Assembly (NCBI RefSeq): GCF_028736925.1
Contig: NZ_JAQZAT010000006.1
Span: forward strand, 62,001-126,000
Direction: 5' to 3'
Source: Flavivirga sp. 57AJ16
GTDB taxonomy: Bacteria > Bacteroidota > Bacteroidia > Flavobacteriales > Flavobacteriaceae
Length of the DNA stretch: 64,000 bases
Below the pieces are notes generated by a model that saw only the letters and a list, made by a program, of their open reading frames with translations, had not been told where the DNA came from and made no database searches. Positions 8,251-60,225 of the stretch are shown here, in pieces. The position numbers and the translations under genes are program-made. Positions within the stretch are counted from its first letter, which is position 1. The number at the start of each line of letters is the position of its first letter.

Positions 8251-8314
8251 TGAAACCTCGTTTATAGAAGTTACTTTTCTTAACCGTAGCAATGCTATGC
8301 CTTCCTAAAAGTGC

Positions 8315-8426
8315 CTCATCTGGACAAATTTTATCTCATTTTAGTTCTCTTAACTCTTATTATCATAAATCGGAGTTCATGAATCTTCGATTTCGGTTAA
8401 ACTCATAAAGTCAAGATGAGTTCATT
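8315..8426. repeat. Dispersed intergenic repeat, copy 1
   Basis: About 110 nt beginning CTCATCT and ending AGTCAAGATGAGTTCAT. It aligns almost without gaps to 57,437-57,547, sharing long exact runs such as CTTAACTCTTATTATCATAA and GGAGTTCATGAATCTTCGAT. It occupies much of the 360-bp spacer between holB and rnr; no gene is visible in the rest. A TAnnTTTG box (TAACTTTG, 8509-8516) between the repeat and rnr may be part of its promoter, though no TTG sits at the usual distance. Confidence 0.7.
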
Positions 8427-8610
8427 TAAAAAAGGGTGTTATTTATGTGGAATCCCTTTTCTTTTTCATAGCTTAACATAAAAAAAATACGATTAAATAT
8501 TTTAAATGTAACTTTGCATAAAACTTAATGCTAATAACTTCACTACTTATTAAGTTTAAAATAACTAATTCCTATATATCTTTAGGAAATGACCATGAAT
8601 TAAATTATAA

Positions 8611-10854
8611 ATGACAAGAAAGAAAAAAAGGAAATCGAAAAAAGGAATTTCCAATTTAACAAATACTATTCTAAGTATTTTAAAAAAAGACAGAAACCAA
8701 TCATTCAACTACAAACAAATTGCTGCAAAACTTGGTGTTAATGATGCCAGTAGCAGAAATCAAATTATAAAAACTTTAGCAAAACTTACTGCTAAACAAG
8801 AGATTATACAAGTAGATCGGGGTAAATTTAAAGCCGTAATCAATGCAGAGTATCATACAGGTATTTTAGATTTATCAGCTAGAGGATCCGGTTATATTAT
8901 TTGTGACGATTTTGATGACGATGTTTTTATAGCATCCAATAATATTAATAAAGCATTAAATGGCGACGAAGTAGAATTCTATGTATACAAACGTAGAAAA
9001 AGAGGAAAACTGGAAGGCGAAATAACCAACATTATAAAACGTGAAAAAAGCGACTATGTTGGTGTGATTCAAATACATAGTAATTACGCTTTTGTAATTG
9101 CAGACAGTACAAAAATGTACAAAGATATTTTTGTACCCATCAATAAAACCTTTAAAGCCCAAGATGGTGATAAAGTATTGGTTAAGCTAGAAGATTGGCC
9201 CGAAAATGCCGATTCTCCTTATGGAAAAGTAATTCAGGTACTTGGCAAGCCAGGGGATCATAATACAGAAATTCATTCCATTCTGGCTGAATACGGCTTG
9301 CCTCATGAATTTCCACAAGAAGTAGAAGCTTTTGCTAATGGCCTAGATACCTCTATTACAGCCGAGGAGATTTCCAAACGTAGGGATATGCGTAAAGACC
9401 TAACCTTTACTATTGACCCTAAAGACGCAAAAGATTTTGATGATGCACTGTCTTTTGAAATATTGGATAATGGCTTATATGAAATAGGTATTCATATTGC
9501 AGATGTATCCCATTATTTACAGGAAGGTACTATTTTAGACGATGAAGCTTATGAGCGTGCTACCTCTGTTTATTTAGTAGACAGGGTCGTACCTATGCTT
9601 CCCGAAGTGTTATCGAATAAAGCATGTTCATTACGTCCACATGAAGAAAAATATACCTTCTCTGCGGTGTTTCAAATGAATGATAAATGTGAAATTAAAA
9701 ACGAATGGTATGGTCGCACGGTCACTTATAGTGATGCACGGTATGCTTATGAAGAAGCACAGGCTATCATAGAGAACAACATGGATCTTGTCATTCCTGC
9801 GAAGGCAGGAATCCACAACATTGACGAGATTAACAATACGATACCAAAAGAAGTTTCTCTTACAGGAAAAACATATCAAACACCTAAAGAGATAGCCTTT
9901 GCCATTTTAAAAATGGATAAACTCGCTAAAATTATGCGCCAAAAACGTATGAGGTCTGGTGCCATTTCTTTCGATAAAGTAGAAGTAAAGTTTCATTTAG
10001 ATCAGGAAAGTAATCCAGTAGGCGTATTTTTTAAAACCAGTAAAGAAGCCAACAAACTTATTGAAGAGTTTATGCTCTTAGCAAATCGAAAAGTATCAGA
10101 GTTTATTGGTAAAAAAGACCCGAAAAAGACGTTTGTGTATCGTGTACACGACGAACCGGACGATAGTAAACTAGCCAGTTTACAAGGTATTGTATCAAAA
10201 TTCGGTTATAAGCTTAATTTTAAGGACAGAAAAACAACATCGGCATCACTTAATAACCTTCTCAAGGAAGTTCATGGTAAAAAAGAGCAAAACCTTGTGG
10301 ACACCTTAACCATAAGAAGTATGAGCAAAGCCGAATATACCACCCACAATATTGGTCATTATGGCTTGGCATTCGATTATTATAGCCATTTCACATCGCC
10401 CATTCGTCGGTATCCAGATGTCATGGCACATCGTTTATTACAACATTACCTAGATGGAGGAAAATCTGTAAGCGAAGAAGCCTATGAAGAGAAATGCAAC
10501 CATTCAAGTGCTATGGAAAACCTTGCCACTAAGGCAGAGCGAGATTCTATAAAATATATGCAGATTAAATTTATGCAAGATCATAAAAATGAAGCATTTG
10601 TAGGTGTTATTTCTGGTGTAACCGATTGGGGCATTTATGTTGAAGTCATTTCCAATAAATGTGAAGGCATGGTAAGTGTTCGGGATATGAAGGATGATCA
10701 TTACGCATTCGATCAAGACCAATATGCCATAGTGGGCAGAAACACTAAAACGATGTATCAACTTGGAGACGAGGTTATTGTAAAAGTTAAAAACGCAGAT
10801 CTAGTTAAAAAACATTTGGACTTTGATTTAGTTGGTAAAAAAGAAATCGAATAG
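8611..10854 (+). CDS. rnr: Ribonuclease R
   Basis: 747 aa 3'-5' exoribonuclease that degrades structured RNA. Order of parts: basic N-terminus with a winged-helix segment (about 12-65), two cold-shock/OB domains (about 70-225), the RNB catalytic domain starting at the metal-binding motif DPKDAKDFDDALS (about 267) and a C-terminal S1 domain (about 655-740). HFTSPIRRYPD (near 595) is the usual RNB signature. A 10-residue piece, DLVIPAKAGIHN (about 391-402), is encoded by a palindromic intergenic-type repeat lying in frame in a loop of the RNB domain; the frame remains open on both sides, so the enzyme is probably functional. Confidence 0.95.
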   Translation: MTRKKKRKSKKGISNLTNTILSILKKDRNQSFNYKQIAAKLGVNDASSRNQIIKTLAKLTAKQEIIQVDRGKFKAVINAEYHTGILDLSARGSGYIICDDFDDDVFIASNNINKALNGDEVEFYVYKRRKRGKLEGEITNIIKREKSDYVGVIQIHSNYAFVIADSTKMYKDIFVPINKTFKAQDGDKVLVKLEDWPENADSPYGKVIQVLGKPGDHNTEIHSILAEYGLPHEFPQEVEAFANGLDTSITAEEISKRRDMRKDLTFTIDPKDAKDFDDALSFEILDNGLYEIGIHIADVSHYLQEGTILDDEAYERATSVYLVDRVVPMLPEVLSNKACSLRPHEEKYTFSAVFQMNDKCEIKNEWYGRTVTYSDARYAYEEAQAIIENNMDLVIPAKAGIHNIDEINNTIPKEVSLTGKTYQTPKEIAFAILKMDKLAKIMRQKRMRSGAISFDKVEVKFHLDQESNPVGVFFKTSKEANKLIEEFMLLANRKVSEFIGKKDPKKTFVYRVHDEPDDSKLASLQGIVSKFGYKLNFKDRKTTSASLNNLLKEVHGKKEQNLVDTLTIRSMSKAEYTTHNIGHYGLAFDYYSHFTSPIRRYPDVMAHRLLQHYLDGGKSVSEEAYEEKCNHSSAMENLATKAERDSIKYMQIKFMQDHKNEAFVGVISGVTDWGIYVEVISNKCEGMVSVRDMKDDHYAFDQDQYAIVGRNTKTMYQLGDEVIVKVKNADLVKKHLDFDLVGKKEIE
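9785..9815. repeat. In-frame palindromic repeat inside rnr
   Basis: TCATTCCTGCGAAGGCAGGA continuing ATC (9791-9813) is identical to the intergenic unit at 41,941-41,963 and inversely related to 41,988-42,008. Here it is translated as VIPAKAGIH. The core CCTGCGAAGGCAGG is a near-perfect palindrome. Confidence 0.85.
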
Positions 10855-19702: not shown

Positions 19703-19719
19703 AATAAAAATCGAAAATT

Positions 19720-21744
19720 ATGAAAGCATTAAAATATATAATGAGTTTTACTTTGGTCTTCCTTATTGGTTGTGCCGAAGATGATAATGATTTAAACTTT
19801 CTTGATAATGTGGTAGCTCCAACAAACGTTTCTGCACTTTTTCAAATAAGTCAAGACAATAGTGGGTTGGTTACTATTACACCTAATTCAGAGGGTGCCG
19901 TTTCCTATAATATCACATTGGGCGATGATACCACAGAACCCGTTAACCTTAAACAAGGAGAAACCATCGATCATACCTATCCAGAAGGGACTTATACAGT
20001 AACTCTGGAAGCTATCGGAATTACCGGTTTAAAAAGTACAGTGACCCAACCATTGGTCGTTTCGTTTAGAGCACCTGAAAACTTGGAAGTTACAGCAACT
20101 ATAAATGCTTCTAATCCATTTATAATAGATGTATCTGCTACAGCCAATTATGCAGCGTCTTTCAATGTCTTCTTTGATACATCCAATGTCGATGAAGAAC
20201 CCACACCATTGGCCATAGACGGAACGGTAAGTTTTGAATACCCTAGTGTAGGCGATTATACCATAAAAGTCGTAGCCTTAAGTGGTGGTTCAGAAACCTT
20301 AGAAACGACTCAAGTGGTTACAATCACAACACCAACAGAACTACCTATTGACTTTGAAATTTTTGACTCCACTGTTTTAGGAGATTTTGGAGGCGCGACC
20401 GTATCGGTTGTAGAGAATCCACAAATAGACGAGGTTAACGGTTCTGCAAAAGTGGCACAAATTATTAAAGGTGCCGGCGAAACGTGGGCAGGGAACGTTA
20501 TAACAACATCTACTCCTATTGATCTAAGCACAAAACAATTCATTAAAATGAATGTTTGGTCTCCAAGACCCGGAGGAAAAATGACCTTAAAACTTGAAAA
20601 TCTTACCGATCAGAATATCTTCTTTGAAAAAGAAATCACAACCGTTGGAAACAGTGCCTGGGAAGAAGTTGTATTCGATGTAAGTGCCATCGATCTTTCT
20701 CAAGACTATCAAAAAATAGTATTGTTCTTTGATTTTGGAACGGTGGGCGATGGCAGTTCAGGTTGGACCTTCTTTATAGATAACATCAAACAACAAAAGC
20801 CTCCAACCAGTGGCGGTGGTAACCATGTTACACCAATAAATTTTGAAACGCCTTACGAGCTAAGTTCATTTGATGGCGGTGGCATTTCCCTTATAGCAAA
20901 CCCAGATACCAGCGGAAATCCTTCAACTACAGTTGCAGAAATGATAAAGGGTGCCGGACAAGTTTGGGCGGGCTCTAAAATAACAGTTCCCGAACCTTTC
21001 AATTTTGATAATTCAACAACCGTTACCATAAAAGTTTGGTCGCCAAGAGCTGGCCTAAACTTACTGGCAAAATTTGAAGATGCCGTACCGTGGCCAGATG
21101 TAGCATCTACTGCCGAAATTACGGCTACGACTACCGTAGCAAACCAATGGGAAGATTTAACTTTCGATTTTTCAGGCATTGATACCGCTATAGATTGGTA
21201 CAACCTGGTATTGATTATGGATAATGGAACCGTAGGCGACGGATCGTCAAACTATACTATTTACTTAGATGCTGTTTCCACAGATCCCATGCTAGATTTC
21301 GAGCCAAAATTTACCTTAAGTAGTTTTGATGGCGGTGGCATTTCAGTTATAGCAAATCCAGATACTAATGGAAACCCTTCCAGTATGGTCGCAGAAATGA
21401 TAAAAGGAGCCGGGCAAGTTTGGGCGGGCTCTAAAATAACAGTACCCGAACCATTCTCTTTTGATGGCGGAACAACATTAACTGTAAAAGTATGGTCTCC
21501 AAGGACAGGATTAAACCTATTGGCTAAGTTTGAAGATGCCGTACCGTGGCCAGACGTAGCGTCTACTGCCGAAATCACGGCTACGACTACCGTAGCAAAC
21601 CAATGGGAAGATTTAACCTTCGATTTTTCAGGCATTGATACCGCTATAGATTGGTACAATCTGGTATTGATTATGGATAATGGAACCACAGGTGACGGAT
21701 CGTCAAACTATACCATTTACATAGATGATATTGATATAAATTAA
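19720..21744 (+). CDS. Multi-module surface glycan-binding lipoprotein (SusE/F position)
   Basis: 674 aa. Lipobox LIGCAEDDND with an acidic run after Cys18 indicates surface display. Two PKD/Ig-like domains (about 35-115 and 118-205) are followed by three beta-sandwich modules of about 145 residues that look like carbohydrate-binding modules: A (about 208-360), B (about 376-515) and C (about 528-674), with a Gly-rich linker (PTSGGGNH) between A and B. Each module has the pattern AxxIKGAGxxWAG, VWSPR and GDGSS. B and C are nearly identical over long stretches, A is diverged. No catalytic domain is present. Position after susD and before GH16 suggests it captures laminarin at the surface; the CBM family cannot be assigned by eye. 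Confidence 0.85.
   Translation: MKALKYIMSFTLVFLIGCAEDDNDLNFLDNVVAPTNVSALFQISQDNSGLVTITPNSEGAVSYNITLGDDTTEPVNLKQGETIDHTYPEGTYTVTLEAIGITGLKSTVTQPLVVSFRAPENLEVTATINASNPFIIDVSATANYAASFNVFFDTSNVDEEPTPLAIDGTVSFEYPSVGDYTIKVVALSGGSETLETTQVVTITTPTELPIDFEIFDSTVLGDFGGATVSVVENPQIDEVNGSAKVAQIIKGAGETWAGNVITTSTPIDLSTKQFIKMNVWSPRPGGKMTLKLENLTDQNIFFEKEITTVGNSAWEEVVFDVSAIDLSQDYQKIVLFFDFGTVGDGSSGWTFFIDNIKQQKPPTSGGGNHVTPINFETPYELSSFDGGGISLIANPDTSGNPSTTVAEMIKGAGQVWAGSKITVPEPFNFDNSTTVTIKVWSPRAGLNLLAKFEDAVPWPDVASTAEITATTTVANQWEDLTFDFSGIDTAIDWYNLVLIMDNGTVGDGSSNYTIYLDAVSTDPMLDFEPKFTLSSFDGGGISVIANPDTNGNPSSMVAEMIKGAGQVWAGSKITVPEPFSFDGGTTLTVKVWSPRTGLNLLAKFEDAVPWPDVASTAEITATTTVANQWEDLTFDFSGIDTAIDWYNLVLIMDNGTTGDGSSNYTIYIDDIDIN
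20839..21744 (+). repeat. Tandem duplication of the binding module
   Basis: Two units offset by 456 bp (152 codons). The stretch from AKFEDAVPWPDV to LVLIMDNGT is identical in protein and differs at the DNA level only at scattered silent third positions. This points to recent duplication or ongoing gene conversion. Confidence 0.9.
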
Positions 21745-35510: not shown

Positions 35511-35540
35511 AGGCTTATTTAGTTGAAAAAATCAGAAAAA

Positions 35541-37553
35541 ATGTCTGAAGAAAGAAAGTCACTCAATTTTATTGAGCAAATTATAGAAGAGGATTTATCT
35601 AATGGCATGTCTAAAGACAAATTGCGTTTTAGATTCCCTCCAGAACCAAACGGTTACCTACATATCGGTCATACAAAAGCCATCGGTATCAGCTTTGGTC
35701 TAGGCGAAAAATATAAGGCCCCTGTTAACCTTCGTTTTGATGATACAAATCCAGCAAAAGAAGAACAGGAATATGTAGATGCCATTAAAGAAGATGTTGC
35801 CTGGTTAGGTTATAAATGGGATAAAGAATTATTTTCTTCAGATTACTTTCAACAACTTTACGATTGGGCCATTGTTCTTATAAAAGAAGGAAAAGCCTAT
35901 GTAGATTCACAGTCTAGTGAAGCTATGGCAGAACAAAAGGGAACCCCGACACAACCAGGAGTTGATGGCCCTTTTAGAGATAGGAGCGTCACTGAAAATT
36001 TAGATTTATTTGAACGTATGAAAAATGGCGAATTCGAAGAAGGTTCGCATATACTTCGTGCTAAAATAGATATGCAGCATCCTAACATGCTTATGCGAGA
36101 CCCCATCATGTATCGTATTTTGAAAAAGCATCACCATAGAACAGCTAACGACTGGTGCCTTTATCCGATGTACGATTGGACACATGGTGAAAGCGATTAT
36201 ATAGAACAAATATCGCATTCGTTATGTTCTTTAGAGTTTAAGCCCCATAGAGAACTTTACGATTGGTTTTTAGATCAGATTATAGATCATACGCTCGTAA
36301 GGCCAAAACAGCGTGAATTTGCTCGTTTAAACTTAAGTTACACCATTATGAGCAAGCGTAAGCTGCTTCAATTGGTTAACGATGGTGTGGTAAGTGGCTG
36401 GGACGACCCACGCATGCCAACCATTTCAGGTTTGCGCCGTCGCGGCTATACGCCCAATGCCATTAGAAAATTTGTGGAAACGGTTGGTGTTGCAAAACGT
36501 GATAATGTGATTGATGTATCTCTTTTGGAATTCTGTATTCGCGAAGATTTGAATAAAACGGCACCAAGGGTCATGGGTGTTTTGGACCCCGTAAAACTGG
36601 TTATTACAAATTATCCTGAAGATAAAGAGGAATGGTTAGAAGCAGAGAACAATCAAGAAGATGAAAATGCCGGATTTAGAAAAGTACCTTTTTCCCGTGA
36701 ATTGTATATTGAAAAAGACGATTTTAAAGAAGAAGCCGGTCATAAGTTTTTTAGGTTAAAATTAGGAGGAGAGGTGCGTCTTAAAAATGCTTATATAATT
36801 AAGGCAGAAGATGTTAAAAAAGATACGCACGGAAACATTACAGAAATTCATTGTACCTATTCAGAAGACACCTCTAAAAAAGTAAAAGGAACATTGCATT
36901 GGGTATCTATTAAGCACGCCATAAAAGTGGAAGTTAGAGAATATGATCGTTTGTTTATGGACGAAGCGCCAGATAGTCACCAAGACAAAGATTTTATGGA
37001 TTTTATAAATCCTCATTCGTTAAAAGTTATTGAAGCTTTTGTTGAGCCAAGTTTAAAAAACGCTAAGATAGGAGATCGGTTTCAGTTTCAACGTTTGGGC
37101 TATTTTAATGTGGATAATGATGCTACTTCAGAAAACATCATATTTAATAAAACAGTTGGATTACGTGATTCTTGGGCCAAGGCCAAAAAGGAGCCTGTGC
37201 AAAATAATTCAAATCAACAAAATAACAAACCGCAACAATCAAAACGAAAAGCGATTGATATTATCCAGCAACTAGGAAAAAAATATACCAATTTACCAGA
37301 ATTAAAGCAGCAAAAAATAAAGGCAGAGATTCAGGAACTTGCTAAAAATGTGGCTTACGAAGAGCTGCAACCGTTATTTAATACGGCAGTTAAAAAAGTG
37401 GGAACCAGAATTGCAGTAATACTTAGTTTAGGGGTCTTGTTAAAAAACGGACAAACCAAAAACGATGCTATAAACGAGTTTATTACTAAAGCTCTGGAGG
37501 ACAAAAATGAGCTGTTAGTATTTGAGGCTGAGTCTATTCATAATATGTTTTGA
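35541..37553 (+). CDS. glnS: Glutamine-tRNA ligase with C-terminal YqeY domain
   Basis: 670 aa from the ATG at 35541 (MSEERKSLNF); a TTG six codons upstream is less likely. The class I synthetase core has EPNGYLHIGHTKAIG (HIGH motif) and TIMSKRK (KMSKS-like), then the anticodon-binding beta barrels (about 340-540). A Gln/Asn/Lys-rich linker (about 555-575) joins a YqeY-like domain (about 575-670), related to the tRNA-binding tail of GatB. This fusion is common in Bacteroidota and some other phyla. Charges tRNA-Gln directly. Confidence 0.97.
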   Translation: MSEERKSLNFIEQIIEEDLSNGMSKDKLRFRFPPEPNGYLHIGHTKAIGISFGLGEKYKAPVNLRFDDTNPAKEEQEYVDAIKEDVAWLGYKWDKELFSSDYFQQLYDWAIVLIKEGKAYVDSQSSEAMAEQKGTPTQPGVDGPFRDRSVTENLDLFERMKNGEFEEGSHILRAKIDMQHPNMLMRDPIMYRILKKHHHRTANDWCLYPMYDWTHGESDYIEQISHSLCSLEFKPHRELYDWFLDQIIDHTLVRPKQREFARLNLSYTIMSKRKLLQLVNDGVVSGWDDPRMPTISGLRRRGYTPNAIRKFVETVGVAKRDNVIDVSLLEFCIREDLNKTAPRVMGVLDPVKLVITNYPEDKEEWLEAENNQEDENAGFRKVPFSRELYIEKDDFKEEAGHKFFRLKLGGEVRLKNAYIIKAEDVKKDTHGNITEIHCTYSEDTSKKVKGTLHWVSIKHAIKVEVREYDRLFMDEAPDSHQDKDFMDFINPHSLKVIEAFVEPSLKNAKIGDRFQFQRLGYFNVDNDATSENIIFNKTVGLRDSWAKAKKEPVQNNSNQQNNKPQQSKRKAIDIIQQLGKKYTNLPELKQQKIKAEIQELAKNVAYEELQPLFNTAVKKVGTRIAVILSLGVLLKNGQTKNDAINEFITKALEDKNELLVFEAESIHNMF

Positions 37554-42015: not shown

Positions 42016-43635
42016 TTATAAAGAAGCTATGGCAGCTTCAATCCGTTTAACACTTTCTACTTTCCCAATCATATACATAATATCAAACACATCCGGACCT
42101 TGTAAAGCGCCAACTAATGCTAAACGCAAAGGCATCATCACTTTACCAAAGCCAATTTCTTTGTCCGTAATCCAGCCTTTAATTTTAGTTTGAAGGTTTT
42201 CTACTGAAAAATCCTCTATGGTATCAATAATTGATACCAATTCCTGCATAAGTTCTTTTGTGCCTTCCTTAAAAGCCTTTTTTGATGCTTTTTCATCATA
42301 GGCCTTTGGCGCTTGAAAAAAGAAATGACTTAAGTCCCAAAAATCTGAGATGAACGTCGCACGTTCTTTTATGAGTCCAATGACCATAGAAATATAATTC
42401 ACATCTATATCATTATGAACATTGGGAGGCATCTTATTATTAGATTCTTCGCTATAGCCTGTACTGAGCGTAGTCGAAGTACTCTGAATGACATTTAACT
42501 TTTCATCAACAATGGATTTAAACCACTTAGCTAAATCATTATTGTTTTGTTCTTGCATATAATGATGGTTAAACCACTTGATCTTTTCAGGGTCAAAACG
42601 AGCTCCCGATTTATTAACACGGCTCAAATCGAAGGCTTCGATAAGTTCATCCAAGCTAAAAATTTCCTGTTCGGTTCCTGGGTTCCAACCTAAAAAAGCC
42701 AAGAAATTCACCATAGCTTCAGGAAAATACCCAGCTTCTTTATAACCTTTTGAAATCTCGTTGCTTTTAGGGTCTTTCCATTCTAAAGGAAATACAGGAA
42801 AGCCCAACTTATCCCCATCGCGCTTGCTTAATTTTCCTTTTCCTGTTGGTTTTAAAATTAACGGCAAATGTGCAAATTCTGGAACCTCCCAGCCAAAAGC
42901 CTTGTATAATTGATAGTGCAATGCTAAAGATGGTAACCATTCCTCACCGCGAATAACATGTGTTATTTCCATTAAATGGTCGTCCACAATATTCGCTAAA
43001 TGGTAGGTTGGCATCCCATCGCTCTTAAACAATACCTTATCGTCTAAAATATTGGTGTCTATTTTAATATCACCACGAATAATATCTGTTAAATGAAGTG
43101 TTTCGTCCTGCGGGGATTTAAATCGGATCACATACGCATCACCGGCATCTAATCTCGATTTAACGTCTTCCGCGCCAAGCGATAAAGAATTATCCAATTT
43201 TAAACGATTATGCCAATTATAGATAAACGTTTTGCCTTTAGCTTCATGATCTTTCCTATGAAAATCTAATGTTTCGGCAGTATCAAAAGCATAATAAGCA
43301 TGGCCCGATGCAATCAATTCATCAGCATATTGTTTATATAAATGCTTTCGTTCACTTTGCCTGTAAGGACCAAATGTTTCGTTTTTGGAATTGGTACCGG
43401 CCACAGTAAAAGTAGGCCCTTCATCAAAAGGGATACCGCACCAATTAAACGCATCAACAATGTACTTTTCTGCACCCTCAACATATCTGGTCTGGTCGGT
43501 ATCTTCTATTCTAAGAACAAAAGTTCCTTGATGCTTTTTTGCAAATAAATAGTTGAATAAAGCGGTGCGAACACCTCCTATATGTAAGGGGCCTGTTGGG
43601 CTAGGTGCAAAACGCACGCGAACGTTTTTGGTCAT
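42016..43635 (-). CDS. gltX: Glutamate-tRNA ligase
   Basis: 539 aa. Class I synthetase with PSPTGPLHIGGVRTAL (HIGH motif, near residue 10) and KLSKRDGDK (KMSKS-like, near 270), EDTDQTRYV, and the C-terminal anticodon-binding domain (about 370-539). It is somewhat longer than usual because residues about 380-398 (VIQSTSTTLSTGYSEES) are encoded by a palindromic intergenic-type repeat inserted in frame at the start of the anticodon-binding region. The frame continues into family-like sequence (VIGLIKERATFISDFW), so the protein is probably functional. Upstream is a 230-bp spacer shared with the divergent DUF4175 gene. Confidence 0.96.
   Translation of the reverse strand: MTKNVRVRFAPSPTGPLHIGGVRTALFNYLFAKKHQGTFVLRIEDTDQTRYVEGAEKYIVDAFNWCGIPFDEGPTFTVAGTNSKNETFGPYRQSERKHLYKQYADELIASGHAYYAFDTAETLDFHRKDHEAKGKTFIYNWHNRLKLDNSLSLGAEDVKSRLDAGDAYVIRFKSPQDETLHLTDIIRGDIKIDTNILDDKVLFKSDGMPTYHLANIVDDHLMEITHVIRGEEWLPSLALHYQLYKAFGWEVPEFAHLPLILKPTGKGKLSKRDGDKLGFPVFPLEWKDPKSNEISKGYKEAGYFPEAMVNFLAFLGWNPGTEQEIFSLDELIEAFDLSRVNKSGARFDPEKIKWFNHHYMQEQNNNDLAKWFKSIVDEKLNVIQSTSTTLSTGYSEESNNKMPPNVHNDIDVNYISMVIGLIKERATFISDFWDLSHFFFQAPKAYDEKASKKAFKEGTKELMQELVSIIDTIEDFSVENLQTKIKGWITDKEIGFGKVMMPLRLALVGALQGPDVFDIMYMIGKVESVKRIEAAIASL
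42442..42494. repeat. In-frame palindromic repeat inside gltX
   Basis: The outer parts AGATTCTTCGC and CTGAATGACAT equal the ends of the intergenic unit at 54,551-54,577, and the core GTACTGAGCGTAGTCGAAGT is the inverse of the intergenic unit at 59,898. The composite repeat is translated as part of gltX. Confidence 0.85.
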
Positions 43636-51515: not shown

Positions 51516-51603
51516 TAAATAAAGTGAGAAGTGATTTATAAGACTTAACTTTAAAAATATATTTCGTTACTGAATGTCCGTAATCATGCATAAAGATATT
51601 TTT

Positions 51604-51748
51604 GTCATTCTGAACGAAGTGAAGAATCTGTTGATAATCAATGTGATCCCTCGTTGCCTCGGGATGACACCCATCTATACAATACAAAGTCGCCATGTCA
51701 TTCAGAAGCCTGCCTGTCGGTAAACAGGCAGGCACGACTGAAGAATCT
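51604..51748. repeat. Cluster of dispersed palindromic repeats
   Basis: GTCATTCTGAACGAAGTGAA + GAATCT (51604-51629), then 65 nt on, a unit starting TGTCATTCAGAAGCCTGCCT and ending GACTGAAGAATCT (51694-51748), whose core is the palindrome GCCTGCCTGT...ACAGGCAGGC. The same two unit types recur at 54,418-54,577. Short open frames crossing them are not genes. Confidence 0.8.
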
Positions 51749-54417: not shown

Positions 54418-54577
54418 CATGTCATTCAGAAGCCTGCCTGTCGACAGGCAGGCACAACTGAAGAATCTTTTAAATGTTATGTTTTAGAGATATACTTATA
54501 AACATAATAGTTATGTGATCATTTTGTTTTTTATTTGGCGTTATATTTATAGATTCTTCACTTCGTTCTGAATGACA
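54418..54577. repeat. Composite palindromic repeat pair
   Basis: A unit starting TGTCATTCAGAAGCCTGCCT (54418-54468) and the inverted unit AGATTCTTCACTTCGTTCTG + AATGACA (54551-54577) enclose about 80 nt. Nearly the same units occur at 51,604-51,748. Confidence 0.8.
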
Positions 54578-55070: not shown

Positions 55071-56423
55071 CTAACGCTTTAAAGTAAAGTGTCCCTTAAT
55101 AACTTCACCCGAGTTAAGAGTGACTACGTACCAATAATCATCAGTATTTAGTGGGTGTCCGTTAAAAGTACCGTTCCAACCTTGGGAGTTTGGGTGTAAC
55201 GATTTTAAAAGTTTACCGTATTTATCGAAAATATGTGTCATTTTTACTGAATTATTACTATCGAAAACTTGCCATACATCATGGCGACCGTCATTATTTG
55301 GTGTAAAGTATTTAGGAATATAATAAGCGTCTTCAATAATTAATACACTAAAACTAGACTCGTTACTATCACAAGCTGTTTCATTATAAATATAAATAGT
55401 TTGCGAGTTTGTGATAATATCTCCAGCATTAAACTGAATACCATGGCCACCAGATTGCATAAAATAATTACCGTTTGTTAGATTTGGTAAAGTATAAGAA
55501 CTATTAGTTACAACATTGTCAAGTGTATCTACATTAACAAAATTGCTGCAATCGTTTTGGGATGCTATATAATTTGAAAAAGTAACAGGTTCCCAAGTTG
55601 AGTGATTTCCAGAAGGATTATCAACAACAACACAATTTAAATCGGGATTAGCCCTAAAATCCATTAGGGTAATATTGCTATTATTACCATTTCTAAGATT
55701 TAATCTACACAGATTATTATGGCTACAATCTAATTGCGTCACATTAAAATTATTAGAGAGATCTAATGCTGTTAATGCATTAAAGGCACAATTTACGTTG
55801 ATTAGCTGATTATTTATAGAGACATTCAGGTTTGTTAGCTGATTATTTTCACAAGCAAAAAAAGTTAAATTTGGGTTATTGGAAAGGTCCAGGTCATTTA
55901 AGAGATTATTGCCACACTCAAACCTATTTAGGGTGATATTTTGAGATATATTTAAGGATGTTATTTGATTGTTATTACATACTAAAACATTTAAGTTGGG
56001 ATTTTGGGTCACATCTAAATTGGCTAAGAGATTATTACCGCAAACCAATGAAATTAAGCCTGTGTTTTGGGTCACATCCAAACTACTTAACTGATTAGAA
56101 CCACACCATAAAATTTGCAGGTTTGAATTTTGGGTCACATCTAGGCTCGTTAATAAATTGTTATCACAAAAGAGCTCTGTTAAAGCACTAAAATCTTCAA
56201 TGCCACTTAAATCTTGAATATTTAAACCTCGAATGTCCAGCGATGGTTCCGCACTAATATCTGCTGTTAAAACAGTACCATTTACAAGGTTATCACTATC
56301 AATACCTTCGTTTATAAGGAACTGTTCAAAATTAGGATCAGGAATAGATGTGTTTTGAGAGATACCAATACAACTTAGCAATACCAAAACTAAACTGCAG
56401 AAGTATTCTTTATTCACCCACAT
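55071..56423 (-). CDS. Leucine-rich-repeat protein with type IX secretion type B domain
   Basis: 450 aa. Signal peptide (1-22, cut near GISQ). Residues about 75-270 are eleven or so 21-residue LRRs of the pattern LxxLDVTQNxxLxxLxCxxN, rich in Asn and Cys. A linker with paired Cys follows, then a C-terminal type B (gliding-motility-associated, CHU-like) sorting domain (about 365-450; YFTPNNDGRHDVWQ and WNGTFNGHPLNTDDYWY). The protein is expected to reach the surface or medium through the type IX system; LRRs suggest binding. It overlaps the end of the OmpA-family gene upstream by 14 bp, implying coupled expression. Confidence 0.92.
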   Translation of the reverse strand: MWVNKEYFCSLVLVLLSCIGISQNTSIPDPNFEQFLINEGIDSDNLVNGTVLTADISAEPSLDIRGLNIQDLSGIEDFSALTELFCDNNLLTSLDVTQNSNLQILWCGSNQLSSLDVTQNTGLISLVCGNNLLANLDVTQNPNLNVLVCNNNQITSLNISQNITLNRFECGNNLLNDLDLSNNPNLTFFACENNQLTNLNVSINNQLINVNCAFNALTALDLSNNFNVTQLDCSHNNLCRLNLRNGNNSNITLMDFRANPDLNCVVVDNPSGNHSTWEPVTFSNYIASQNDCSNFVNVDTLDNVVTNSSYTLPNLTNGNYFMQSGGHGIQFNAGDIITNSQTIYIYNETACDSNESSFSVLIIEDAYYIPKYFTPNNDGRHDVWQVFDSNNSVKMTHIFDKYGKLLKSLHPNSQGWNGTFNGHPLNTDDYWYVVTLNSGEVIKGHFTLKR

Positions 56424-57264
56424 AGGTTATTAAAATTTCTACACGTCTATCGAATTTTGGATCACCGCCAAGTGGAAATTTTCGGCGCATCCCTAAATGG
56501 CGCATTCGTCTTTTATCAACCCCTTTTTTTGCAAAATAATCATAAACATATTTTGCCCGAGCTTCAGATAAGTTACGCTTTTTGGTCTTTCTATCTACGG
56601 CATCTCTACTGTATTGTGTACAACATACATGACCTTGTATGGTGAAATAAATATCTTTACGTTCTACAAGCGCCTTGGCAATCGCTTCCAGTGTTTTTTT
56701 AGATTCATATGTTACCTTACTATAACCGGTTTTAAATAGAATATTTTTAAAAACTATTTTATCGCCAACTTTAAGGTCTCCTTTTATTAGTTCTGACGTG
56801 CTTTTCTTTTTAACAACTTTTTCTACAGGCTTTTTTTCAACGGGTTTGGGCTTAGGTTTTTTTGGTGTTACTATAATTTCTACTTTTCGGTTTAAGCCTC
56901 TTATTTTTAATAGGTTTTTTTCTTCAACGATTTTTAATAAAACCTCGCCTTTTCCATCAACATTTGTAATTAATTCATCGCTAATTTCATTACTGGAAAA
57001 AATAGCTTTTATAGCATCTGCGCGCTGTTGGGATAATTTTAAGTTATAAGTATCGGCACCAATGTCATCGCAAAATCCAAATATAGAAATGGTCTCGATG
57101 TCTACATCTGTTAAGGTCGAAATAAAGAGAAGCAAACGGTTTTCTTCTGTTGGTGGGAGGTTATACTTATCTGTATCAAAGTAAACATTGTGAGTCAATT
57201 CTTTTTGGGAGAATGCAAATGCCGTGTTTAACGTTAATAAGATAAGTACCAATAATTTATTCAT
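56410..57264 (-). CDS. OmpA family protein with two peptidoglycan-binding-like domains
   Basis: 284 aa from the ATG at 57264 (MNKLLVLILLTLNTAFAFSQ, a clean signal peptide); a longer frame upstream is rejected. First OmpA-like domain about 22-135 (VYFDTDKYNLPPTEENRL, LSQQRADAIKAIF), a Pro/Lys linker (PKPKPVEKKPVEK), second OmpA-like domain about 165-284 (LSEARAKYVYDYFAKKGVDK, FDRRVEILI). There is no beta barrel. Probably periplasmic and paired with the LRR surface protein whose gene it overlaps. Confidence 0.88.
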   Translation of the reverse strand: MNKLLVLILLTLNTAFAFSQKELTHNVYFDTDKYNLPPTEENRLLLFISTLTDVDIETISIFGFCDDIGADTYNLKLSQQRADAIKAIFSSNEISDELITNVDGKGEVLLKIVEEKNLLKIRGLNRKVEIIVTPKKPKPKPVEKKPVEKVVKKKSTSELIKGDLKVGDKIVFKNILFKTGYSKVTYESKKTLEAIAKALVERKDIYFTIQGHVCCTQYSRDAVDRKTKKRNLSEARAKYVYDYFAKKGVDKRRMRHLGMRRKFPLGGDPKFDRRVEILITYVGE

Positions 57265-57321: not shown

Positions 57322-57547
57322 CATCTTGACTTTTTCTATTTCCTAAAACCTATCTGCTGGCAGGAAAGAACGGCCAAAATTCGTCCATATTTCGTTACTT
57401 TTTTATGTTTAGTGAACTAGGCCATTAAAAAAGGGTCTCATCTATACAAATTTCACGTCATTTTAGTTCACTTAACTCTTATTATCATAAATAGGAGTTC
57501 ATGAATCTTCGATTTCGGTTGAAAACAAAAAGTCAAGATGAGCTTAT
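57322..57547. repeat. MITE-like element with dispersed repeat, copy 2
   Basis: Ends TTCATCTTGACTTTTT (57322) and AAAAAGTCAAGATGAG (57528) are inverted. The right 110 nt match 8315-8426 almost without gaps. The element fills nearly all of the 300-bp spacer between the S41 and OmpA genes. Confidence 0.75.
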
Positions 57548-57563
57548 AGAAATAAAACAGATC

Positions 57564-59588: not shown

Positions 59589-60225
59589 ACATAAAATATG
59601 AATACAAAAGTAGTAATAACAATTAATACCTCAACCACGGTATAATCTACCTAATAGGGCCGTGTTTTGAATACATTGAATTACAGTAATTTAATGCTTG
59701 ATATAAACTTGATAAATCTTATAAACAATGCATAAAACCTGATGTTTCTTTGTCTTTTTATTAGAATAATTGCCCTTATGAGATGTCTCAATCGTGACTC
59801 ATTTCGACATGACAATGAGGTTTTTATTATTAAACTCGATGTAAGCATAAAATTATTGAACAGACTATCAATAATTTAATCCTGGTTGTCAGGTTGAGTA
59901 CTTCGACTACGCTCAGTATAAACTAAAAGTCGTAAGGCACAAGGCGACAAATCGTATAATTAGTGAATTTATTGTTAAAAACTCCCTTGCCTGCCTGTCG
60001 GCAGACAGGTTTTAAATCGAACTCCCGTTATTAAATAAAAGGATTAAAACGTGTCATGTTATTGATGATACTTCTAATAAGAACTGGTATTAGATATCTC
60101 CAATATATTTTAATAATGTTTAAAGACACAACTTTTAGCCTACTCAATATAGCTATAAAGAAAAAGACACTCTATTTTTATAAAGTGCCTTTTTTTATGT
60201 TATTAAAAATTTTAAAGACTAAAAT
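59589..60225. other. Gene-free spacer with dispersed repeats
   Basis: No credible gene. It contains GTACTTCGACTACGCTCAGT (59898-59917; the family also inside gltX), CCTGCCTGTCGGCAGACAGG (59988-60010 region), and the terminator of the M1 peptidase gene. An 87-codon plus-strand frame from 60,056 runs into the peptidase gene and is rejected. Confidence 0.7.
60164..60197 (-). terminator. Terminator of the M1 peptidase gene
   Basis: On the minus strand stem GGCACT / AGTGTC (one G-T pair) with an A+T loop, followed by a T run; lies 29 bp after the stop codon. Confidence 0.65.

Follow-up and report, generated by a model that had tools for sequence, protein, structure and literature searches.

The window, the whole stretch of 64,000 nucleotides of a Flavivirga genome that was analyzed, contains a gltX gene for glutamyl-tRNA synthetase that carries, in a loop joining two helices of the enzyme, an in-frame segment best understood as a dimeric palindromic element of the REP type. 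This reading is part of a broader explanation, in which REPs entered permissive loops in frame and were afterward nested into, replaced, or lost, and the two together are assigned a probability of about three in four. No other full-length gltX was found in the genome, where three further matches are short repeat-bearing pieces with stops (coordinates in Table 1). Its main insert adds ∼28 residues and is built as a REP dimer of a composite first arm, a spacer, and a decayed second arm. The first-pass annotation had placed a composite repeat in frame at 42442–42494 and counted 17–18 residues; a 52-nt repeat ending at 42493 is indeed present, but the real insert is longer, with a decayed second arm following. 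Its statement that the ends and the core of the repeat recur in spacers is borne out, the outer ends matching 54544–54577 and the core 59887–59925.

Table 1. Positions in the window of gltX, its repeat-derived inserts, and related features.
Feature	Position	Strand	Basis or remark
gltX, glutamyl-tRNA synthetase, 539 aa	42016–43635	−	TIGR00464, 496 bits (cut-off 290)
Whole main insert, 87 nt	42407–42493	−	Aligned to 80 relatives and to 12 genomes of the genus
Composite first arm, 52 nt	42442–42493	−	25 distinct contexts in 0.56 Mb examined
Inner (nested) unit, ∼26 nt	42456–42481	−	Plain and nested forms of one outer repeat coexist
Decayed second arm of main insert	42407–42434	−	Comparison with L079 and G003, alignment by eye
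Another REP-derived insert in gltX (decayed; adds 8 residues)	43387–43413	−	Clear unit at same site in relatives
Plain outer repeat, spacer	54544–54577		
Plain outer repeat, spacer, opposite orientation	51603–51636		
Nested core within another outer repeat, spacer	59887–59925		
CGTC-type REP hairpin in RNase R gene (8611–10854)	9788–9815	+	In frame
glnS (YqeY fusion)	35526–37550	+	Without insert in the window

Repeat-derived inserts in GltX

In the 0.56 Mb examined, the 52-mer occurs with 0–4 mismatches in 25 distinct contexts including that in gltX, five of them exact (again counting gltX), where identical contexts are counted once. None of the 24 other contexts lies in a recognized gene; a doubtful 107-aa ORF (L235) contains one of them. 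The core pattern with at most one mismatch has 76 matches in the whole genome and the reversed-pattern control has none, and the repeat score of the main insert is reached by 0 of 300 shuffles. A chance match is ruled out by the copy number, the control, and the shuffles together; against these figures, chance resemblance or ordinary variation of a loop whose length does vary across the order is exceedingly improbable.

The compared segment of GltX spans 24–26 residues in 76 of 80 relatives, 47–50 in the other four, and 52 in the window; the corresponding loop has 9 residues in the nearest solved structures (6b1z, 6brl) versus 36 in the window. Within the genus, the main site is filled in four of 12 genomes (G000, G003, G005, G009), with differing contents, and lacks an insert in eight. 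Because relatives without the segment predominate at both levels, the segment is an insert, and a family-wide feature of GltX, the outcome that the first-pass annotation had named as contrary to its idea, is ruled out by the alignment it had proposed.

Three of the four filled relatives (L077, L079, L089) have an intact CGTC-type dimer at the insert codon of the window. G003, the sister of the window's species on a four-gene tree, has a decayed form of such a dimer at the main site and shares the decayed second arm with the window, where the first arm is the 52-nt composite. Comparison of these sequences suggests that the first arm in the window was replaced or invaded, in frame. G009 has a different composite, in which the inner unit is the same but the outer arms flanking it are not; in G005 the loop is long, but its repeat score is no longer significant (p 0.16).

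A second site in GltX (residues ∼75–83) is filled in five of 12 genomes, clearly in G003, G005, G007, and G009 (0 of 300 shuffles in each) and in decayed form in the window, whose copy taken alone gives p 0.39; it is empty in the remaining seven. The best AlphaFold2 model of GltX, from 44 sequences, has a mean pLDDT of 81, with values below 50 in residues 77–85, 136–140, and 379–408, the first and last of these stretches being the two repeat-derived sites. The mean pLDDT of the other four models is 64–68, so that fine detail is unreliable.

Repeat families, genic copies, and a putative mover

The first-pass annotation had described repeats of two families in two core genes. Both rnr and gltX do carry in-frame repeats, and both families are of REP type. 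The rnr-type copy forms a hairpin with an 8-bp stem and a loop of 4 (z −5.1), whereas shuffled sequences fold about as well as the composite arm in gltX (z −0.5 and −0.3) and the plain outer repeat (z 0.5); because the 8-bp hairpin is present in the former and absent from the gltX arm, the rnr copy is a member of the CGTC-type REPs and the gltX arm is only REP-like. Of the terminal tags that mark CGTC-type REPs (CGTC, TGTC, or CCTC), TGTC is present in both the gltX arm and the rnr copy and CGTC in L077, L079, and L089. At the gltX site of these same three loci the units form head-to-head dimers, and inverted pairs are also found between genes. An Rfam search of the window gives a single match, a tRNA, and thus no known RNA family for the repeats.

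Plain and nested versions of one outer repeat coexist, in locus L003 side by side. The inner unit is preceded by ...GAG in 16 of 22 distinct contexts and by ...GAA in 6. The nested and plain forms differ at the junction by ∼1 base, so the relationship is not one of clean insertion.

The repeats are mainly intergenic. Copies internal to genes number 5 of 193 examined (73 of 76 core, 28 of 28 short, and 92 of 97 rnr-type copies, the rest having fallen at the edges of stretches or having been collapsed because their contexts were identical), versus ∼163 expected at random, a rough figure that assumes the coding fraction of 0.846 seen in the window, where ORFs with orthologues cover 54,168 of 64,000 nt. 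The five are core copies in GltX, ArgS, and an alpha-2-macroglobulin-type protein (A2M), and rnr-type copies in RNase R and in an ABC ATPase (L299), the last near an N-terminus whose start codon is uncertain. Stop-to-stop ORFs of at least 100 aa contain more copies (8/73 core, 2/28 short, 19/92 rnr-type). Left out of the internal count were core copies probably upstream of the start (L025, L155) or in ORFs of 107–126 aa (L229, L250, L235); short-type copies at the C-terminal end of HutI (L215) and in a doubtful 104-aa ORF of the window; and rnr-type copies at C-terminal ends (L280, L274, L288), in a 289-aa ORF of tandem repeats (L262), in four short ORFs of 118–126 aa (L307, L278, L287, L262), and, for the remainder, at ORF residues 1–7. 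In L215 (1501–1557) the short repeat makes the C-terminal end of imidazolonepropionase (HutI), HSERSEESQ....

Enrichment of the repeats in genes is thus ruled out, the depletion being strong. The first-pass annotation had regarded occurrence in genes at no more than the chance level as evidence against spreading into coding sequence; this is literally the case, but the comparison addresses enrichment, and the idea holds equally well without it. Of the three frames open in the forward unit, STxLS is the one used at all five of its internal sites (both GltX sites, ArgS, A2M site 1, and IcmF), and the others are confined to doubtful ORFs (L195, L235). Both open frames of the reverse unit are used, as VTLSAVE (ArgS, A2M site 2) and as TERSRS-like peptides (A2M site 3, L173, GlnS).

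The genome has seven Y1_Tnp matches, two of them neighbors on one contig. Repeats lie within 300 nt of three of the six Y1_Tnp genes compared (L161, L163, L166) and are absent beside L162, L164, and L167. A core-related dimer precedes L161, and a core-related repeat at 3 mismatches follows L166. Two rnr-type copies with an altered TGTC tag follow the Y1_Tnp gene of L163 (2083–2105 and 2287–2309; G000:C1 near 578,000), a placement that may be due to chance. Judged from sequence, the flanking repeats are compatible with mobilization of REPs by RAYTs, short of proof. The numbers of Y1_Tnp genes and of core copies per genome show no significant correlation (Spearman 0.30, p 0.35, 12 genomes), leaving RAYT number unsupported as a predictor of repeat number.

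Other features were encountered along with these. At L167 (1468–2952; G000:C4 ∼132,900), a 495-aa frame begins with a Y1_Tnp-like domain (29 bits, cut-off 23) and continues into coproporphyrinogen III oxidase (445 bits); since Y1_Tnp matches occur in ORFs of similar length (496–535 aa) in five other genus genomes, the fusion may represent a tamed transposase domain. Two spacers of the window (8295–8433 and 57417–57555) share a 139-nt direct repeat, 83% alike, and ORF 55071–56423, which by eye resembles a leucine-rich repeat protein, contains three 63-nt spaced copies at 56002–56168.

Recurrence in other genes and competing explanations

ArgS carries the insert in reverse orientation in four of 12 genomes (G000, G001, and the composite-bearing G008 and G009) and in forward orientation in five (G004, G005, G006, G010, G011), with none clear in G002, G003, and G007; the site requires five state changes on the four-gene tree. 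The RNase R hairpin is present in seven of 12 genomes and absent in four, G010 having another long loop without a significant repeat score (p 0.42), and the presence of the hairpin needs only two changes on the same tree. A2M has in-frame REP-derived inserts at several sites: among 10 rows caught by the search expressions, site 1 is clear in G000, G005, and G006, with a weak case (p 0.03) in G004; among seven rows caught, site 2 is clear in G000, G002, G003, G008, and G009, with a weak case (p 0.02) in G011; and site 3 is filled in G008 alone among 11. In G001, the GlnS orthologue contains repeat-derived sequence inserted close to where the GlnRS domain ends.

Sampling of 30 core loci over the genus places eight in ORFs of at least 150 aa and four well inside them, namely in GltX of G007, a ketosynthase-like gene (L173), IcmF (L183), and an A2M-type gene (L185), the identities at L173 and L183 having scores below the NCBIfam curated cut-offs. 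Beside its nested core, the IcmF of L183 (G005:C27 ∼20,444) seems by eye to contain more REP-like peptides, SPTPTLPKRER and DEILKQAQDD. A screen of 47 ORFs of the window against relatives yields 56 inserted segments of at least 5 residues, more than half of them from the badly aligned ORF 19708–21741 and without a repeat match. The scores of six are reached by no shuffle: four pieces of GltX, one segment in the G001 GlnS, and one at the N-terminal side of ORF 55074–56426 that may be located upstream of the start. The rnr insert is invisible to this screen because most rows carry it.

The suggestion of the first-pass annotation that a repeat-spreading process enters coding sequence and is tolerated in frame is therefore supported by relatives without the segment and by the further in-frame inserts in ArgS, RNase R, A2M, and a relative's GlnS. 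It needs amending in that the genic copies are rare in-frame survivors without enrichment, and in that different or oppositely oriented repeats occupy the same loops in several species; the spreading may be ongoing or may instead have been old insertion followed by recombination and loss.

According to the preferred explanation, REP-type elements are scattered over the intergenic DNA of the genus, and an element landing in a gene would nearly always be removed by selection. It would survive only in the few loops where additional disordered residues are tolerated, and then only with the reading frame open. A settled element would remain a target, either for a further unit nested after ...GAG or ...GAA or for the exchange of one arm with another REP family, so that sister species would come to have different, oppositely oriented, or no repeats at one codon. 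Movement might be due to RAYT (Y1 HUH) transposases, and arm replacement to recombination or conversion. In a more far-reaching form, proposed tentatively at a little under even odds, a few permissive loops of core enzymes are long-lived landing sites recolonized by REPs across lineages, each settled REP being the target of the next unit, and it is by one nested insertion after another and by the swapping of mobile palindromes, always in frame, that the loops evolve.

Alternatively, each loop may have received one old REP insertion, with the present pattern arising from many losses and from homologous recombination of loop alleles between species and without recurrent insertion, a possible history that we consider appreciably less probable than not. 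The sister genomes G001 and G009 are 92% identical over gltX and only 80–86% identical in the blocks holding the two insert sites, where G001 is closer to G007; because identity falls at both sites, exchange of loop alleles probably contributes to the differences there. A KPIVD-like flank common to all seven filled GltX rows and present also in several empty rows, the decayed second arm shared by the window and G003, and the two changes sufficient for RNase R are likewise in keeping with a single old insertion. However, the occurrence of different repeat families at one codon and of opposite orientations in ArgS makes a single insertion insufficient without later replacement. In the GltX tree (36 rows, seven filled, insert columns left out), a single clade of filled rows is rejected (p-AU 8e-5), and six changes between filled and empty are needed, at least four of which are forced by well supported branches. 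Filled labels show no more clustering on this tree than expected from shuffling, an equally low value being reached in 195 of 500 shuffles; 13 of its 33 inner branches are open, and gains and losses are indistinguishable on it.

The inserts might instead be kept for a function of the peptide, such as tuning of the synthetase or partner binding. Their persistence with open frames, the use of one of three open frames at all five forward sites, and the involvement of three tRNA synthetases (GltX, ArgS, GlnS) would fit such a role. It is nevertheless improbable, as most relatives have no inserts, the contents, length, and orientation of the inserts vary freely, and pLDDT is low at the insert sites; the single frame may simply be the least harmful one. 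In the preferred explanation, the Ser/Thr-rich insert peptide is most likely a neutral spacer.

Relation to known repeat systems

In the REP-RAYT systems of Bacteroidetes subclass 2.6, as outlined in PMC6006769, Y1 transposase genes have nearby repeats with copies elsewhere in the genome. The Y1 genes with nearby repeats found here resemble that arrangement, the likeness to the subclass being judged by eye on motifs, and differ from the published outline in that repeats lie near only three of the six Y1_Tnp genes examined.

Published work on GTAG and CGTC REPs (PMC3733652, BMC Genomics 2013) describes short palindromic, mostly intergenic repeats in which dimers are common, the CGTC type being known from Bacteroidetes with a stem of 8–9 bp and a loop of 4–5 nt and as never flanking Y1 transposase genes. 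Some lie inside genes, tRNA synthetases included, and recB of two Xanthomonas species has a REP at about the same site. The present repeats are alike in being short palindromes, mostly intergenic, in forming dimers, and in being located in part in tRNA synthetase genes. They differ in that corresponding loops of several core genes are occupied, within one genus, by different families or orientations, with nesting, in that the gltX arm lacks a stable 8–9 bp hairpin, and in that rnr-type copies lie, in one case, beside a Y1_Tnp gene (L163). Among the literature matches listed, seen as titles, abstract openings, and passages of mostly open-access papers, none reports such inserts in Flavobacteria. 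Within that literature, what seems to be new is that in one free-living genus several core genes have had the same loops filled repeatedly, while repeat family and orientation turned over and units became nested. If correct, the explanation would provide a natural series among closely related, free-living bacteria, in which a fixed codon of an essential gene is seen as empty, plain, nested, replaced or inverted, or decayed, would make the entry of selfish palindromes into proteins, and whether they are still moving, testable outside Rickettsia, and would mark loops of tRNA synthetases and RNase R that accept foreign sequence.

The Rickettsia palindromic elements, as described in two papers (the review PMC10969869 and PMC3733652), are palindromic repeats of ∼150 bp found in frame in unrelated protein genes. 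In-frame insertion into unrelated genes is common to both systems, the genes here being those for GltX, ArgS, RNase R, and A2M, and in relatives GlnS, IcmF, and the ketosynthase-like protein. Set against that published description, the present elements are distinguished by their host, by their length of 26–90 nt, and by their rarity in genes (5/193).
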